Shown here: in pieces, positions 1-9,668 of the stretch
How positions within the stretch are numbered: position 1 is the first letter of the stretch
Layout of the letters: each line of letters starts with the position of its first letter
Assembly: GCA_019358985.1 (NCBI GenBank)
Contig: JAHHIJ010000010.1
Location: forward strand, 62,001-126,000
Length of the DNA stretch: 64,000 nucleotides
Direction of reading: 5' to 3'
DNA from: Tolypothrix brevis GSE-NOS-MK-07-07A
Lineage (GTDB): Bacteria > Cyanobacteriota > Cyanobacteriia > Cyanobacteriales > Nostocaceae
Translations under genes and position numbers: made by a program
The notes under the pieces: generated by a model
Seen by the model: the letters and a program-made list of their open reading frames with translations, nothing else
Databases searched by the model: none
What the model was told of the DNA's origin: nothing

Positions 1-1678
1 GACAAAATTCAATTAGTCGCTTATCCATGAATGGATGACGCGCTTCTAAAGAAAACATTGCCGCATATTGATCCGCTCGTTCTAAGGTATAAGGCAATAC
101 ACCTTGGGTAAGACCTCGCCAATGTTGCTCTTTAGCGGTGAGGGGTTCTTGATTCGATGCACCAAACTTCTGGATTCGCTCATTTAAACCAACATGTTCT
201 GCAAAGTTACCTTTGACAAGGGGAGTCTGGGAAACAAAGGGATTTGCGACTTTTGTTTGTTTGCGCTGCCAAAGTTGCCGTACTTGTTTTACAACAGGTT
301 TTAGTCCGTGATTTACGAGCAATTGTTTGCGCGAAACACCAAAATGTTTGTGGATTAGCCTTACTCCCTCGAAAAATGATATCCAACGGAAGTTTTTTGC
401 GAAATCTTTCAGATATGGCAGTCCATAACTCCGAAAAGCAGCGTAAGGTAAAACATTAAAGTGTGGTGAGAATGCTTTAACTTCCTGTATACATGTTTTC
501 CAATTTCCCTGACGTGCTAATTCGGTAATTCTACTTCCACCGTGGCAAACTGTAGTGTCCCCATCAAAACCATCTAGAGAAATCCGCAGTCCTAGTTCTT
601 TAACAGCGCGGTTTACAATCCAAGGATAAAAATGACTTGGACCGAGCAGAGCCTCATCTTCGTACCGGAAAATGCTATCTAGGTTAGATAACGGACCAAA
701 CTTGTCACCGTGGACGTAGTGGGGAATGAATCCCCCCTGCTCTAGCACCGCATTCATGAAAGGGCGCTCGTCACACTCACTTATTGTATCAAAAATAGTG
801 GAGATTGTGTGTAGCGGAGTTGTCTTTTTTTCCGCAAGTAAATTCCGCGCCACACAGGTAACAGCCGAAGAATCTAATCCACCGCTCAACTGGCTGGCGA
901 TGGGGAAGGCACTACGTAAGCGGCAACGTACTGCCTCGGTAAAAATTTCCCGAAACTTCTCTGCGTAAGCCTCATCAGAATCCATCTTAATCTCACGATG
1001 AGGATCGAGTTCCCAGTAAGACCTTATCTCCATCCCTGACTGACTGACAACCATAGTGTGAGCCGGGGGAAGCCGCAGAATATCTTTATAACTAGTGATG
1101 GCTCTGTCTTCCATCGTCAATGTCAAGTAATCGGCAATTCTCACTTCATTGACTTGACGCGGAACTTCTTGTAAACATAGTAGAGCCTTGATTTCTGAGG
1201 CAAATACAAAGGCTTTACCTGGTTGGTGGTAGTAATAGAAGGGCTTGACTCCGAAATGGTCTCTGGCACAAAACAGAGACTGTTGCTGTTTATCCCAGAT
1301 AGCAAAGGCAAAATCACCTAAAAGATGTTCTGGACAAGACTCCCGCCACTTTTCATAAGCCGCCAATATTAACTGGCTATCCGTAATTTTATCAGATGGA
1401 CAGTTATTTAATTGTAACTTATTTATAAGTTCATCGCGGTTATCTATGCGAGCATCTGACGTAATAATCAAATCGCCTGTGGAGTTAGCTAAAGGTAACT
1501 TTTCTAGCAAAGATTCAGGAGTAGTCCACAGCATCCGATGCCCAAAACCGATCGCCCCATTTATCCAGATATCTGCACCATCTGGTCCTCTGTGTGCAAG
1601 GGTTTCCACCATCATTCCCAGGTCTTCCCGGTCTACGGTGCGATCGCTTAGATAGTGAATACCCATGATACCACTCAT
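1..1678 (-). CDS. Lasso-peptide-type asparagine synthetase homologue (macrolactam cyclase), 3' end outside window
   Basis: The minus-strand frame is open from the ATG at 1678 to the window edge (at least 559 residues), so the gene is truncated by the window. It has the asparagine synthetase B layout: an N-terminal glutaminase-like domain (about residues 1-210) and a synthetase domain with the PP-loop SGGLDSS near residues 264-270. The N-terminus reads MSGIMGI where true AsnB has MCGI, so the glutaminase nucleophile Cys2 is replaced by Ser. McjC-type lasso cyclases likewise use ATP but not glutamine, to join the core N-terminus to an Asp/Glu side chain. Its ATG overlaps the TGA of the upstream B2 protease gene (ATGA), which indicates translational coupling. 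Together with the PqqD-like and B2 genes this makes a lasso-type maturation role likely. An amidotransferase of another pathway is the alternative. The substrate is not identified. Confidence 0.85.
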   Translation of the reverse strand, partial: MSGIMGIHYLSDRTVDREDLGMMVETLAHRGPDGADIWINGAIGFGHRMLWTTPESLLEKLPLANSTGDLIITSDARIDNRDELINKLQLNNCPSDKITDSQLILAAYEKWRESCPEHLLGDFAFAIWDKQQQSLFCARDHFGVKPFYYYHQPGKAFVFASEIKALLCLQEVPRQVNEVRIADYLTLTMEDRAITSYKDILRLPPAHTMVVSQSGMEIRSYWELDPHREIKMDSDEAYAEKFREIFTEAVRCRLRSAFPIASQLSGGLDSSAVTCVARNLLAEKKTTPLHTISTIFDTISECDERPFMNAVLEQGGFIPHYVHGDKFGPLSNLDSIFRYEDEALLGPSHFYPWIVNRAVKELGLRISLDGFDGDTTVCHGGSRITELARQGNWKTCIQEVKAFSPHFNVLPYAAFRSYGLPYLKDFAKNFRWISFFEGVRLIHKHFGVSRKQLLVNHGLKPVVKQVRQLWQRKQTKVANPFVSQTPLVKGNFAEHVGLNERIQKFGASNQEPLTAKEQHWRGLTQGVLPYTLERADQYAAMFSLEARHPFMDKRLIEFC

Positions 1679-2121
1679 AATTTCACTCCTTGGAGAGATG
1701 GCAGTGGCATAAAGCGGGAAAGGTCTGTAAGATTACCAATCACAATTAGTCCTTGATATTCAACCCAAGCGTGAGCTTCTAAGGTTCCTTTTTCTCCTTT
1801 AGCAACACCGATTCGCAGTTCACAAGAGTGACCGTAGCGACTCATTAGCACTTGAGTAGTCAAAGCGCGAGCCAAACATTTTACACCAGGCATATAGCGG
1901 CTAACTGCGTTTACGGAACAAGAAATTTTGCGGACGGAAACTGGATTTGTCACTTTTAGGCGATCGCGACTAATTTTTGCTAGCACTTTTAAAAGTGTGT
2001 GAAAGGGTATTAACCACAACCCTAGCCTGATGGTTGCTAGTATTATTAAGGTCATGATTAAAAGCTGGCGATCGCTAGCTCCCATCCGAAAAAATTTAAA
2101 CAGTTGTATTCTTTTTGACAT
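1675..2121 (-). CDS. Lasso peptide biosynthesis B2-type protein (transglutaminase-like leader peptidase)
   Basis: This 148-residue protein matches the B2 family of lasso-peptide leader peptidases, which cut the leader from the precursor before cyclisation. A hydrophobic N-terminal stretch (about residues 20-45) precedes the transglutaminase-like domain. The expected catalytic triad is visible: Cys82 in KCLARAL, His117 in EAHAWVEY and Asp133 in NLTD. The start at 2121 overlaps the end of the PqqD-like gene by 26 nt. A second ATG at 2085 (MGASDRQ) would remove the overlap, so the start is uncertain. The stop codon overlaps the start of the cyclase gene. The split B1/B2 arrangement is the one usual outside Proteobacteria. 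Confidence 0.85.
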   Translation of the reverse strand: MSKRIQLFKFFRMGASDRQLLIMTLIILATIRLGLWLIPFHTLLKVLAKISRDRLKVTNPVSVRKISCSVNAVSRYMPGVKCLARALTTQVLMSRYGHSCELRIGVAKGEKGTLEAHAWVEYQGLIVIGNLTDLSRFMPLPSLQGVKL

Positions 2122-2410
2122 CGATTAGTCCCGCAGCCCAAAGGTCTTCCAGCAATGCTTTCAGATCGCGATCGCACTGTATATCTTCAACTTCATACTC
2201 TTCCAAAAGCATCTGCTTAATATCAGATACAGCTTTTGGTTCCTGAATCAAAGTCCAAATCAGCGCTCCCACTTCATTCAATCCGTGATATATTCCAGTC
2301 TTGAGATTGAGAATTACTGCTTCCCCACCCAGATCAGAAGAAATTTGTTCTTGATTTGCCTCTACGATGGAAGACTCTGAGATTTTCTCATTTAGTTGTT
2401 TTGAGTTCAT
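2096..2410 (-). CDS. PqqD-family RiPP recognition protein (lasso B1-like)
   Basis: This 104-residue protein carries a PqqD-type RiPP recognition element. The diagnostic stretch runs from about residue 25 (SDLGGEAVILNL) through TGIYHGLNEVGALIW, followed by an acidic helical C-terminus. Such proteins bind the leader of a ribosomal precursor peptide and present it to the B2 protease and cyclase. It is the first recognisable gene of the three-gene minus-strand cassette, and an AAAGGA about 12 nt before the ATG could serve as ribosome-binding site. The precursor gene would be expected just upstream, at coordinates above 2410, but none is recognisable there. Family assignment is good; the peptide it serves is unknown. 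Confidence 0.85.
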   Translation of the reverse strand: MNSKQLNEKISESSIVEANQEQISSDLGGEAVILNLKTGIYHGLNEVGALIWTLIQEPKAVSDIKQMLLEEYEVEDIQCDRDLKALLEDLWAAGLIDVKKNTTV

Positions 2411-3080: not shown

Positions 3081-3416
3081 TTATGTGCTGTGCGATCGCT
3101 CAACGATTGCTTCACTAAGTAAAGCAATCCACATATCTGCCGGCTCAGAGTAGTAATCAATTTCTTCAACTTGATATTGACAAGAGTCAGAGCCTTTTTT
3201 TAAAATAATATAATCACCACGCTTGATACCTTTACCCTGTCCTGTCATATAACCTTTTTTCAGGTCATTTGCAGATTCAAATACATAGTCCTGTCCACTG
3301 ACGTATCGGGTATAATCATAAGTCTTATTCAGCTGCTGTTTGGGCTTGTTTAATAAAAAGTTAAACACCGATGAAAAAACAACCCTGAAGTTAATACTTG
3401 ACCTGGTAGAAGACAT
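3081..3416 (-). CDS. Conserved-looking hypothetical protein, 111 residues
   Basis: I do not recognise this family. The protein is basic in its first half (a KPKQQLNKTYDY stretch), has a short motif GQGKGIKRGDYIIL at about residues 60-73 reminiscent of small beta-barrel folds, and ends acidic. There is no signal peptide or membrane segment. It lies on the same strand as the lasso-type genes, but about 670 bp upstream and separated by a dispersed repeat, so it is probably not in their operon. No clear ribosome-binding site is visible. It is too long and lacks the core features for a lasso precursor. Coding status rests on length and composition only. Confidence 0.5.
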   Translation of the reverse strand: MSSTRSSINFRVVFSSVFNFLLNKPKQQLNKTYDYTRYVSGQDYVFESANDLKKGYMTGQGKGIKRGDYIILKKGSDSCQYQVEEIDYYSEPADMWIALLSEAIVERSHST

Positions 3417-4477: not shown

Positions 4478-5116
4478 ATGCCTAAGATTTTGATAAACGA
4501 AGCAGCTAAAATACTAGGTGTCCATACTGATACATTACGACGTTGGGAGGAATCAGGAAAAATCAAGCCAGAACGAACTGTGGGAGGGCACAGACGTTAC
4601 GACTTAGCTGAATTGCTAGGAGTAGAGAATGATTCAGGACTAACTATTTGTTACGCTCGCGTCAGTACTAGACCCCAAAAAAAGGATTTAGAAACCCAAG
4701 CCGCTGTTTTATCTGCATATTGTCAGCGGATGGCTTGGAAGTATGAAACTATTAAAGATATAGGCTCTGGGATTAACTACAACAAAAAAGGTCTAAGTCG
4801 TTTGATTCAACTGATTACAACTAATCAAGTTAGGCGCTTAGTGTTAACTCATAAAGACAGATTATTACGTTTTGGTGCAGAAATTATTTTTGCTTTATGT
4901 GAACAGTTTGCAGTCGAGGTAGTAATATTAAATCGCGATTATGATAGCTCACCCGAACAAGATTTAGTACAAGACGTACTAGAAATTATAACTGTATTTT
5001 CAGCACGTTTGTATGGTTTACGCAGTCATCAAAACAAGGCGCTAATTGATGAATTAGACAAGACAACAACAAAAATTGGGAAAACTTATGGAATCACTCC
5101 TGAAAGTATGATGTAG
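4478..5116 (+). CDS. tnpA: IS607-family transposase (MerR-like HTH + serine recombinase)
   Basis: This 212-residue protein has an N-terminal MerR/excisionase-type helix-turn-helix (about residues 1-45, with DTLRRWEESGKI and VGGHRRYD). A small serine recombinase catalytic domain follows, containing CYARVST with the nucleophilic Ser of the family near residue 63. RLVLTHKDRLLRFG at about residues 125-138 matches the conserved LVVxxKDRLxRFG motif. It should catalyse excision and integration of the surrounding element as a Ser recombinase. Length is normal for the family and there is no internal disruption, so this half of the element may still be functional. Confidence 0.93.
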   Translation: MPKILINEAAKILGVHTDTLRRWEESGKIKPERTVGGHRRYDLAELLGVENDSGLTICYARVSTRPQKKDLETQAAVLSAYCQRMAWKYETIKDIGSGINYNKKGLSRLIQLITTNQVRRLVLTHKDRLLRFGAEIIFALCEQFAVEVVILNRDYDSSPEQDLVQDVLEIITVFSARLYGLRSHQNKALIDELDKTTTKIGKTYGITPESMM

Positions 5117-5157
5117 TCAGACAATCTTGATTTTTTTTGAAATCGGAGGAAAATTTC

Positions 5158-6846
5158 ATGTCATAAATTACAATCCAAACATTAATACCTACAACTAATG
5201 AAAATAAAATAGGTATTGACTATATCACTGAATTTGGTGTAATTTTTGGTCGCTGTATCCGCACAGCCTTTAATATTCGGAACAATAAGGGTAAAGTTGA
5301 AACCCCAAGTCAACAATTAAAAACAGATATCGCAAAAGAATTAGAAAGTAGATATGGAGTTTCTAATACTGAAGCTCGTTGTGCCGCTGTTTTAGGTTTA
5401 GCAAATTATGACAGTCAAGCATCTTTAGTTGATACCTACATCACTTCAAAGTATGAAGCAATCAAAGGTATTAAACGCAGTATCATCAAGCTAGAAAGCA
5501 AGCTGAAAAAAGCCACGAAAATTAATGATACTTGGACAGTCAAAAATCTCAAAAAAACAATCAACTATAAACATCAAAAAATACAGCATCTTTCAGCAGA
5601 GATTGCCCAGTTAAAAATAGACAGAGCTAATGGTAAATACCACGTTGCTTTTGGGACTAAAAAATTATTTGGTGCTCAATTTCGTTTAGAGAAAAATAGT
5701 TATAACGACCATCAAGAATGGTTGAAAGAATGGCAGCAGTCAAGGTCGCACATTGTTTACTACGAAGGGGCAGCAATTTTTCAAACAGGTAATCAACTTG
5801 TTCGCTATAATACTGATACACAAACATTAACTGTTACCGTATCTCCAGCTTTACGGCAAAAATACGGGGAAAAAATTGTTTTAACTGGTGTTAATTTTCC
5901 TCGTGGTCATGAATGGTTAGAAGCAGCAATTGCACCTGTAATAAAAACATCTACCCGCAAAGATAAAAAAGGTCAGATTAAACAATCAGAGCGCACTGCT
6001 TCCGCACAGGCTGTTACTTATCGTTTTGTTATAAATAGTAGTAAAATTTATCTTAATGCTACCATTGATGCACCAACAAAAGCTAACAGTACGTCATTAA
6101 AAAATGGAGCATTAGGTGTTGATTTTAACCCTGATTCTCTTGATTGGGCTGTAATCGATAAGCAGGGTAATTTCAAGCGTCACGGAACAATTAAAATCAA
6201 TGTTCAAGATAAGCGGACTAACCAAACATCCGATATTATTGGTAAGGCTTGTGCTGAGTTAGTCAGGCTTGCAGAATTCTATCAAATACCTATAGTTATT
6301 GAAGATTTAGATTTGGAGAAAAAGAAAGCATCGATGAAAGAAAAGGGTGCTAAATACGCACGTATGCTTTCAAATATGGCTTATAGTAAGTTCAACCAAA
6401 TGTTAGAAAGTCGCTGCAACAAATTTGGTATTGAACTATTAAAAGTTGATGCTGCTTATACTAGCGTAATTGGGGTTACAAAGTATATGGCAATGTATAG
6501 TTTGAGTTCGGGTTGCGCTGCTGCTTTAGTGATAGCTCGGCGCGGTCAGAATCGAACTGAAAATCTTCCTAAGTCCCATGCAACTTTCTTTAAGAAACCA
6601 GAGGATTTGTCTAAGCCGGGTGCGTGGAAAAAGGTAGCTCGCAAGATAAACATTGTTGGCGGTTTTAATCGTCATCGATGGTACTCAAACGGGAAAAAAC
6701 AGGTTTCGAGTAACTCTCGAATGCTCCGCAAGCTACGGCAAAATTCGCCTTCGGGTGGTACGGTGCAGCTTATAGAAAGCCCTCATATACCAAAAACTTC
6801 CGCGCTGAAAGTTAGCCTAGAACTGGTTTTAAGCCTCGTTGCTTAA
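5158..6846 (+). pseudogene. tnpB: TnpB-like accessory protein of the IS607 element, early stop at codon 3
   Basis: The frame runs open from 5167 to 6846, but the only ATG with a good ribosome-binding site (CGGAGGA, ATG at 5158) is followed by TCA TAA, so translation would stop after two residues. A change of one base restores an ORF of about 562 codons. Without it, translation must start internally; a TTG at 5722 would give 374 residues. RuvC-I is present (GVDFNPD, Asp about 322 in full numbering) and RuvC-II is present (VIEDLDL, Glu about 382). The usual four-Cys zinc finger and the following Asp of RuvC-III are absent. The sequence there reads AAYTSVIGVTKYMAMYSLSSGCAAALVIARRG in segments, as in a known group of TnpB-related proteins. 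TnpB enzymes are RNA-guided nucleases, and this one is probably catalytically weakened or inactive. Confidence 0.8.
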
Positions 6847-7460: not shown

Positions 7461-9668
7461 ATGCTGAAGTCAGAAAAATATCCTCACCCTTTGTCACAAG
7501 CGAATAAGACACAGTTAAATGATGTTGAAGAAGGTGGATTGAACTTGGGTCAAGTTGGATCTGCTCTGCGTCGTCGAGCATTTTTGATTGTTGGTTTAAC
7601 AGCCATAGTCGCAACCGGAGCGGTGTTGAAGGCAGAACATGATCCTCCAGCGTATCAAGGCGAATTTGAGATTTTAACCAAGCCTTTGACTGGTGAGAAT
7701 AAGGCTCTAGCCGATGTTCCTCAAACTCTGGGTTCCCAACCGAAGATAGCAGATGCGCAGACAACAAAAACCACGATCGCAGTTTTACAAAGTCGTAAAG
7801 TCCTAGCTCCCATTGTCGAAGAGCTTCAGGCTAAATATCCAAAGCTCACTTACGAGAAACTGATTAAGAACTTAACTATTGAACCCGAGCAGGAAAGTAT
7901 TTTACAAGTCCAATATCTAAATGCAGATGAAAAGCAAGTTATCGATGTTTCCCAAGCACTTGCTAAAACTTTTTTGCAGCATAGTTTGGCAGAGCGTCAA
8001 GCAGACGTAGCTCAGGCAATTAAGTTCGTTAAGCAAGAAAAACTGCCCATAGAGCGACGGGTTATATCATGGCAAAATCAACTGGGAAACCTGCGACTGC
8101 AAAATAACTTAATTGACCCGACCCAGAAAGCTGGAGAGCTATCTACTCATATTACGACTTTGACGCAACAGCAACTCGAGAATCGGGTGCAGCTAGCACA
8201 AATGGTATCTAAGTATCAGGTTTTGCAAACAGAGTTAGCGCGACGATCGGGTGAGAGGGCTGGTAATTTAGTGCTGAGTGAAAATCCTCGCTACCAAAAG
8301 ATACTCGATCAGATCCAGGAAGTAGATGTTGAGATTAAAAAACAATCCGCCAAATTTACGGATTTTAACCCTACCATCGGGACTTTACAGGATAGAAAAG
8401 ACAACTTACTCCCATTGCTTTTAGCGGAAGAAGACCGGGTTCAGAGAGATTTTCAAAGCCGCATCCAGGAACTGCAAGCTAGAGATAGAGAATTGGGTGT
8501 AAAAATCAATAATTTAAATAATTCCGTCAAGAATTTGGCAATTATTACCCGTAATTACGATAACATTCAGCGGGAATTACAAGTTGCCACTCAAGGTCTG
8601 ACTCAATTTACAACCAAAGAACAAGCATTGCAGCTCGAAAAAGCCCAAAAGCAACAACCTTGGCAGTTACTCGATCCTAAACTCACGAAAGTGACTGAAC
8701 CTGATGCTGTTTCAGAAAGTGCTAGGAAAAACTTGGCATTGGGGGGAATGTTAGGTTTGCTGTTGGGCGTAGGGGCAGCTTTAGTTGTAGATAAACTCAG
8801 TAATGTCTTTTATACCTCTAAGGATCTCAAAGAAGCTACTAGACTGCCCTTATTAGGTGTAGTTCCCTTAAGAAAAGAACTAGCACTGACAACTAAAGAA
8901 AATGCACCTAAAGGAGTACAACCAGTAAGTAGCATTTCCTTTTTTGAGGTGTTTCGTTCTCTCTACACAAATATTCTTCTTTTGGGTTCGGATACGCCAA
9001 TTCGCTCTCTAGTAATCAGTTCGGCAGCACAGGGGGACGGTAAATCTACTGTGGCTATACAGTTAGCCCAGGCAGCAGCAGCGATGGGGCAACGAGTATT
9101 ATTAGTGGATGCGAATCTACGTTGTCCGACTTTGCACAATCGAGTCGGGCTGATGAATATTCAGGGATTGACTGATGTGATTTCCCAGGATTTAGAGTGG
9201 AGTAATGTAATTGAGCGATCGCCTTTAGAAGAAAATCTCTTTGTCATGAGTGCCGGTCCGGTTCCACCAGACTCGGTAAGGTTACTTGCATCTGGAAAAA
9301 TGCAAGATTTAATGGACGATCTGCAAGCCAGTTTTGATTTGGTAATCTATGACACACCCCCAGTTTTGGGCTTTGCTGATGCCTATTTACTAGCGGCTAA
9401 TACCAATGGTATGGTGCTAGTTGCTGGTTTAGGTAAGCTCAAACGTACTGTACTTCAACAAGCATTAGAAGAGATTCAAGTTTCTGGCACTGTCATTTTA
9501 GGGTTAATCGCTAATAAATCTAAAGATTCCACACCATCGTCTTATACCCACTATCAGCAGTATTACAGACAGAGCGTGAGTGCTGAACGAGTTGGTGTCG
9601 ATACAGATGACGACACCGCTAATTCCGCATCAACCTCTGCTTCAATGTCAAACAGAAAACGACGTTAA
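7461..9668 (+). CDS. Wzc/ExoP-like polysaccharide co-polymerase with tyrosine autokinase domain
   Basis: This 735-residue protein has the layout of bacterial tyrosine kinases that control exopolysaccharide chain length and export. A first membrane segment lies at about residues 38-56. A long periplasmic region with coiled-coil helices (about 165-400) follows, then a Gly-rich second membrane segment at about 425-447, then the cytoplasmic BY-kinase. The kinase shows Walker A SAAQGDGKST (about 518-527), Walker A' VLLVDANLRCP and Walker B LVIYDTPP (about 627-634). A C-terminal tyrosine cluster (YTHYQQYY, about 694-702) is the likely autophosphorylation site. No glycosyltransferase genes lie beside it here, so the polymer is unknown. 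A role in exopolysaccharide or sheath formation is inferred from the family. Confidence 0.9.
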   Translation: MLKSEKYPHPLSQANKTQLNDVEEGGLNLGQVGSALRRRAFLIVGLTAIVATGAVLKAEHDPPAYQGEFEILTKPLTGENKALADVPQTLGSQPKIADAQTTKTTIAVLQSRKVLAPIVEELQAKYPKLTYEKLIKNLTIEPEQESILQVQYLNADEKQVIDVSQALAKTFLQHSLAERQADVAQAIKFVKQEKLPIERRVISWQNQLGNLRLQNNLIDPTQKAGELSTHITTLTQQQLENRVQLAQMVSKYQVLQTELARRSGERAGNLVLSENPRYQKILDQIQEVDVEIKKQSAKFTDFNPTIGTLQDRKDNLLPLLLAEEDRVQRDFQSRIQELQARDRELGVKINNLNNSVKNLAIITRNYDNIQRELQVATQGLTQFTTKEQALQLEKAQKQQPWQLLDPKLTKVTEPDAVSESARKNLALGGMLGLLLGVGAALVVDKLSNVFYTSKDLKEATRLPLLGVVPLRKELALTTKENAPKGVQPVSSISFFEVFRSLYTNILLLGSDTPIRSLVISSAAQGDGKSTVAIQLAQAAAAMGQRVLLVDANLRCPTLHNRVGLMNIQGLTDVISQDLEWSNVIERSPLEENLFVMSAGPVPPDSVRLLASGKMQDLMDDLQASFDLVIYDTPPVLGFADAYLLAANTNGMVLVAGLGKLKRTVLQQALEEIQVSGTVILGLIANKSKDSTPSSYTHYQQYYRQSVSAERVGVDTDDDTANSASTSASMSNRKRR

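Follow-up and report, generated by a model that had tools for sequence, protein, structure and literature searches.

The stretch of Tolypothrix brevis GSE-NOS-MK-07-07A analyzed here, 64,000 nucleotides of contig JAHHIJ010000010.1 (the window, C29:62001-126000 of a 6.52 Mb genome in 74 contigs), begins inside a gene cluster that almost certainly yields a lasso peptide. The genes for a leader-binding protein (B1), a leader peptidase (B2) and the start of a macrolactam synthetase (C) are located at the left end of the window, and the remainder, three precursor genes (A1-A3), a kinase (K), an ATP-binding cassette (ABC) transporter (D) and a nucleotidyltransferase (N), lies beyond its left edge, in the order B1-B2-C-A1-A2-A3-K-D-N. 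Taken as a whole, it is very likely a cyanobacterial lasso cluster in which ring formation would be combined with a kinase step on a Ser of the tail, possibly a sugar, a disulfide bond and export. The genes are:

B1, window 2096-2410, minus strand: PqqD-like leader-binding protein (RRE), 104 amino acids; PF05402 66.5 bits (gathering cut-off 23.4).
B2, window 1675-2121, minus strand: leader peptidase, 148 amino acids, Cys82/His117/Asp133; NF033537 109.8 bits (cut-off 33), PF13471 81.5 bits.
C, window 1-1678, minus strand, whole gene C29:61657-63678, same strand as B1 and B2: lasso macrolactam synthetase, 673 amino acids, the N-terminal 559 inside the window; extends 344 bases beyond the left window edge; NF033535 1071.4 bits.
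A1, C29:61334-61528, same strand as C: precursor, outside the window, 128 bp downstream of C.
A2, C29:60732-60926, same strand as C: precursor, outside the window.
A3, C29:60128-60325, same strand as C: precursor, outside the window.
K, C29:58776-59711, same strand as C: HprK-like kinase, 311 amino acids.
D, C29:56698-58572, same strand as C: ABC transporter, 624 amino acids.
N, C29:55435-56673, same strand as C: nucleotidyltransferase, 412 amino acids, PF14907 201.5 bits (cut-off 31.2), beside the kinase gene (a pseudomycoidin-like trait).

B2 (NF033537), C (NF033535) and the precursors (NF033528) all scored above curated lasso cut-offs, which bears out the lasso-type maturation system proposed in a preliminary description of the window; B1 reached 73.6 bits on NF033536 (cut-off 80) and is below the cut-off of both lasso-specific PqqD models. 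The gene overlaps given there (26 nucleotides at 2096-2121 between B1 and B2, ATGA at 1675-1678 between B2 and C), the B2 residues Cys82, His117 and Asp133, counted on its translation, and the MSGIMGI start of C, which exits the window at its left edge, were found correct. That description had seen no precursor and suspected an unknown peptide whose precursor was distant or of an unusual type. Upstream of B1 there is indeed no open reading frame (ORF) of at least 40 amino acids with a lasso leader; however, three precursors with a YxxPxLxxxGxxxxxT leader follow C from 128 bp downstream, immediately outside the window, so that of its suggestions the one placing the precursor past the left edge was right. 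The precursor seemed to be missing because the window was cut just before it, and the leftward extension recommended there brought out both the short ORFs (64-65 amino acids) and the 624-residue ABC transporter.

The three precursors are near-identical (64, 64 and 65 amino acids) and sit in a tandem repeat with a spacing of 601-605 bp. Each begins MKSSYTAPKLTVHGNVA(D/E)ITQVLGNPT, which corresponds to the lasso leader YxxPxLxxxGxxxxxT with Thr at position -2, and all three copies score 64.6-65.2 bits on NF033528 lasso_cyano (cut-off 33). A precursor upstream or elsewhere in the genome was rejected, since six-frame searches of the whole genome with NF033521 and NF033528 matched only the three copies beside C.

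The same arrangement is found in relatives. The neighborhood set contained 61 loci (numbered with L), namely our own, 10 from a contig scan and 50 regions around cyclases of an order-level genome sample, with 68 cyclase ORFs longer than 400 amino acids, including two duplicates (L095 and L037 are one contig). The contig scan with C had returned 15 loci, of which 10 were cyanobacterial (L034-L043, 45-92% identity, the best from Plectonema radiosum NIES-515); L044-L048 (26-34% identity to C; Cytophagales, Gammaproteobacteria and similar records) were left out of the comparisons. With our own proteins as phmmer queries (E 1e-4), a precursor was found within 3.5 kb downstream of 62 of the 68 cyclase ORFs and upstream of two, a kinase downstream of 64, an ABC gene with 53, B1 upstream of 59, and B2 upstream of 53, all of which are lower bounds of presence because many contigs are short. 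B1, B2, C and A remain together and the order B1-B2-C-A-K-D-N recurs. In a phylum sample of 386 genomes, 18 matched the precursor family (9 of them above the cut-off), as did four of five genomes of the genus (three above it), and the cyclase family was above the cut-off in 46 of 388 genomes of the order sample. Cyanobacterial lasso clusters have already been published in silico (PMC9332814, PMC11392904), and the present cluster adds another of that kind. No characterized cyanobacterial lasso peptide was found in the literature searched, which is no proof, as most subscription papers were outside its reach.

While gene identities, gene order, precursors, motifs and their recurrence are read directly from the sequence, we infer from them a pathway of cleavage, threading, ring closure, modification and export. 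B1 would bind the YxxPxL leader and hand the precursor to B2, which would remove the leader, most likely one residue past the conserved Thr. C, an AsnB-like ligase with SGGLDS and without the glutaminase Cys, would activate the side chain of an Asp, which is Asp9 with a core start at Val1, and couple it to the freed N-terminus so that the ring closes about the threaded tail. K would probably phosphorylate a conserved tail Ser ([G/D]S-x-[D/N]; core Ser26 here), N may place a sugar on the phosphate, as reported for pseudomycoidin, the tail Cys pair would probably form a disulfide, and D would export the product.

In all, 103 precursor peptides were collected, which together provide a concrete set of cyanobacterial lasso precursors open to testing. 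Ten antisense or unrelated ORFs and two exact duplicates had been dropped from the pattern matches, and four of 23 further hidden Markov model matches were omitted (two L095 duplicates, one L132 peptide equal to that of L130, and a weak one from L134). One hundred peptides could be split at the Thr, and 82 remained after removal of cores about 80% alike; the three without the Thr (L118 and two of L127) are outside the 100. A leader with Trp for Tyr (WxxPx) occurs in the precursors of L122-L126, L128, L130, L132 and L133, beside NF033535-type cyclases, and several of these precursors end in GS plus at most one residue.

Counted from Thr(-2), which is the rule among characterized lasso precursors (PMC10368454), our three cores are predicted to have 43, 43 and 44 residues, each with Asp9. 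Among the 82 non-redundant cores residue 1 is A in 19, G in 14, I in 12, Q in 9, V in 8 and another in 20, and an acid (Asp or Glu) stands at positions 7-9 in 72, at 10 only in 5, and at none of 7-10 in 5. The Thr(-2) rule makes a core start at Val1 with a Val1-Asp9 ring likely, and this is the start we prefer. A less likely start for the product of the same cluster is the conserved Gly3 (GNPTRGD...), which would give a Gly1-Asp7 ring of seven residues and a product of 41-42 residues. Gly3 is kept in 40 of the 45 long cores (an automatically defined group of cores with 30-58 residues, two of which, from L135, look unlike the others), whereas position 1 varies, and a Gly3 start would turn cores with Asp10 into 8-residue rings, a known size, with rings of 7 or 8 overall. 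It conflicts, however, with the Thr(-2) rule; under that rule Gly is at position 1 in six of seven cores of the short TFS type, and five long cores lack Gly3 altogether.

The long cores show two features in the tail. Two tail Cys were found in 24 of the 45 long cores, including each of our own, none in 21 and a single one in no core; with one core per locus (n = 29) the counts were 16 and 13. Random placement of Cys gave on average 19.9 tails with an odd number for the 45 cores and 13.0 for the 29 loci, and none of 20,000 draws was free of odd tails. This pattern suggests that the two tail Cys would probably form a disulfide. The second feature, [G/D]S-x-[D/N], occurs in the tail of 30 of the 45 long cores against 5.4 expected from shuffles (with 14 the highest value in 2,000 shuffles); among the 24 cores without the LNG/FNG-type stretch of our own family it occurs in 17, where 2.1 would be expected. 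The motif was chosen on the same data and kinship was not corrected for, so that this support is overstated. In our precursors the conserved Ser is core Ser26, 17-18 residues before the C-terminus. It is somewhat probable, from this conservation, that the tail Ser is the site of the kinase. A site at core Ser3, as for BsfK, was rejected, as Ser3 is present in just one of the 45 long cores.

A Ser recurs in three groups of short cores. Ser24 is present in all seven TFS-type cores; it is C-terminal in four of them, and the other three continue for 3 or 6 residues beyond it; DVPxGT cores have a terminal Ser in five of five, and in W-leader cores the last Ser is at most two residues from the end in seven of seven. 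At L108 a single kinase gene is found alongside one terminal-Ser and two internal-Ser precursors. Taken together with the short-core pattern, this suggests that the kinase may read Ser in its context and not the C-terminus. Of the TFS-type precursors at L108:8029-8813 and L042:13402-13635, one has Ser24 as its final residue, and in the others GTF or ETPMRG comes after it.

The short cores could also mean that the tail of our precursors is cut back to the conserved Ser or close to it, so that a lasso peptide of the usual size with a C-terminal (phospho)Ser remains. Such trimming would agree with the short-core relatives that end in or near Ser (four of seven TFS, five of five DVPxGT) and with the paeninodin-type kinases that have been characterized, which act on a C-terminal Ser (PMC9266682). 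However, the segment beyond the Ser is under constraint, because the two-or-none Cys pattern is kept there, and no second protease is seen among the cluster genes, so that we regard trimming as unlikely and lean slightly, on the strength of the tail sequences, toward a product in which the full tail is retained. Should the long tail be retained and the kinase act on the internal Ser, lasso peptides would span a wider range of size and modification than is known, and the kinase would be one that reads a motif and not the C-terminus alone.

The kinase itself has the residues named for lasso kinases in PMC10368454, i.e., the His, G..G.GKS and the Asp-Asp (HASCININNKGVAFMGGSGWGKST...TDD). The strict pattern was found in 59 of 66 kinase ORFs, and the other seven keep GK[ST] in changed surroundings. 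In a structure search, an AlphaFold model of the K homolog from L034 found HPr kinase 3tqf first (E 1.9e-6, TM 0.34/0.61), followed by other HPr kinases and phosphoenolpyruvate carboxykinases; the fold fits the HPr kinase family, with modest scores. Precedents for both K and N have been described (PMC9266682, PMC10368454), and by analogy with PsmK and PsmN the addition of a sugar by N is conceivable, if short of probable.

Several observations weigh against our interpretation. K gave sub-threshold HprK matches only (PF07475, 27.6 bits against 33.3), and the L034 model, built from a ten-row alignment, is of modest confidence (mean pLDDT 63.1, pTM 0.65). N was found within 10 kb of only 34 of the 68 cyclase ORFs, although short contigs make this, too, a lower bound. 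The sole acid of positions 7-10 is at position 10 in four of the 45 long cores, outside the 7-9 of known lasso rings, and with a Val1 start these four would call for a ring of 10 residues. The strict Ser motif is absent from 15 of the 45, our precursors end in Lys, Lys and Asn and lack the terminal Ser on which PadeK and PsmK act, and the other 18 short cores are mixed, some being without a fitting Ser, such as two L131 peptides beside a kinase gene. The complete product, a full-length lasso peptide of 43-44 residues with a class IV-like tail disulfide and a sugar-capped phospho-Ser in mid-tail, recurring across Nostocales and relatives, is offered as a doubtful combination of the separate steps; should it be confirmed, such a tail, long, of the disulfide type and carrying Ser internally, would count as a variant.

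Comparison with known systems places the cluster beside several of them. A close published one, in Cyanocohniella sp. LLY (L040; PMC9332814), has the same cyclase and precursor families, B1 and B2, with a C that is 65% identical, and its predicted cleaved lasso peptide has 36 residues; in contrast, there are three near-identical tandem precursors with cores of 43-44 residues here. The passages of that paper on Cyanocohniella do not discuss a kinase, a nucleotidyltransferase, the Cys pair or the tail Ser. The paeninodin and pseudomycoidin clusters share B1, B2, C and an HprK-like kinase, and pseudomycoidin the nucleotidyltransferase as well (PMC9266682), but their kinases act on a C-terminal Ser, whereas the conserved Ser is internal in our precursors; since these have no C-terminal Ser, the cluster was not classed as paeninodin-type. 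The Bsf cluster of Bradymonas has the same content of A, B1, B2, C, D, K and N, and BsfK acts on a non-terminal Ser (PMC10368454), but this is core Ser3, with Ile(-2), instead of a tail Ser with Thr(-2). Pandonodin (class IV, with a disulfide within the tail) likewise has two Cys in a long tail behind its ring; its tail is the longest in a 2026 review, 18 of 33 residues (PMC13352647), as opposed to the 43-44 residues predicted for our cores. The relevant passages of PMC9266682 mention no class IV cluster that has a kinase or nucleotidyltransferase.

It is very improbable that the product is linear, with C inactive or serving another role, as in the linear polyphosphorylated peptides (LPP) of Bacilli. 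The LPP clusters share B1, an HprK-like kinase, an NTP-transferase, an ABC transporter and the lasso-like leader motif, but their core clusters, as described in PMC13381572, have no cyclase and a SpI-type peptidase, whereas C and B2 are both present here. What speaks for a linear product is that sister clusters exist in the same family with a lasso-type leader, B1, K and B2 but without C; however, our C is intact with SGGLDS and Asp9 is present in our precursors, while among those of the cyclase-less clusters only one copy has it. Twelve such loci (L139, L140, L142, L163-L171) have a lasso-type leader, B1, a kinase and glycosyltransferase genes (GT4, GT2), and nothing that matches C within the stretch retrieved. 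Some weak NF033528 matches, MSQSENAKKNYSEPELKAHGKISGLTQQVGGSGGFGTT..., belong to them. Their order is B1-GT4-A(1-4)-K-GT2-(epimerase, in some of them broken or absent)-B2-D-N. B2 is found in 11 of the 12, the exception being L168, where the contig ends within the cluster. The L140 scores are 114.3 bits for B2 (NF033537) and 194 bits for N (PF14907). Within the first ten residues of the cores there is no Asp or Glu, save Asp9 in one of the four copies of L165.

Precursors of this type were found in 15 of 217 genomes of the family, the two weakest (L172, L173) being ordinary lasso clusters with C; the thirteenth strong genome, G374, has just a 3.7 kb contig (L141). The genome-wide cyclase check covers seven of these 13 genomes: in six (G030, G127, G278, G374, G643, G664), covered by the order-sample search, no cyclase was above the cut-off, and G101 has a lasso cyclase elsewhere in the genome. 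Perhaps these clusters make a linear phospho-glycopeptide of an LPP-like kind with the lasso peptidase retained, as judged from their gene content. The closest precedent is the LPP of Bacilli, with a SpI-type peptidase, in place of which the lasso B2 is kept here, and sugar genes are added (PMC13381572); this was also the only relevant account of such clusters in a limited literature search. They would show a Ser-modifying module apart from ring formation, with the lasso B2 peptidase retained.

The preliminary description had drawn attention to a Ser in place of the glutaminase Cys of C. The replacement is real, but it is not distinctive: the residue after the start is Ser in 67 of the 68 cyclase ORFs and Cys in none, with Gly (49) or Ala (18) next, and the only ORF without Ser2, in L120, comes from a gene split between frames whose start lies outside that ORF. 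Ser2 is the rule in this cyclase family and therefore no special mark of this cluster, so that with the precursor located downstream of C the earlier puzzle is settled on both counts. The ATP-site motif SGGxDS is kept in all 68 ORFs (SGGLDS in our C). Aligned with 7ylz, an amidotransferase of solved structure, our C reads Ala-Arg where 7ylz has Gly-Glu, the Glu of which we take to be part of the glutamine pocket, and (D/E)-x-R-x-DNR is found at this position in 64 of the 68 cyclases. Glutamine hydrolysis of the AsnB type by C is ruled out by the absence of Cys2. That C could instead be a glutamine-using amidotransferase of the adjoining polysaccharide operon is hardly credible, for although C is above the TIGR01536 cut-off (280.7 bits against 267.1) and five glycosyltransferase genes adjoin the cluster, it scores 1071.4 bits on NF033535 lass_lactam_cya (cut-off 525) and lacks the Cys that GlmS and PurF of the same genome retain, and B1, B2, C and A remain together in relatives.

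Polysaccharide genes lie on both sides of the lasso cluster. Past N there is a convergent run of genes including the five glycosyltransferases (L002:5812-13476), and on the opposite side, past a tRNA-Gln, a Wzz/Wzc-like gene (window 7461-9668); some Bacilli lasso clusters have likewise been reported among polysaccharide genes (PMC13381572). Upstream of B1, the window contains a minus-strand ORF of 111 amino acids (3081-3416) with a sub-threshold DUF7601 match only. Further on, at window 4478-6846, a gene for a MerR-type resolvase precedes an ORF that has a Cas12f1-like (TnpB) match below threshold, an arrangement resembling an IS607-type element.

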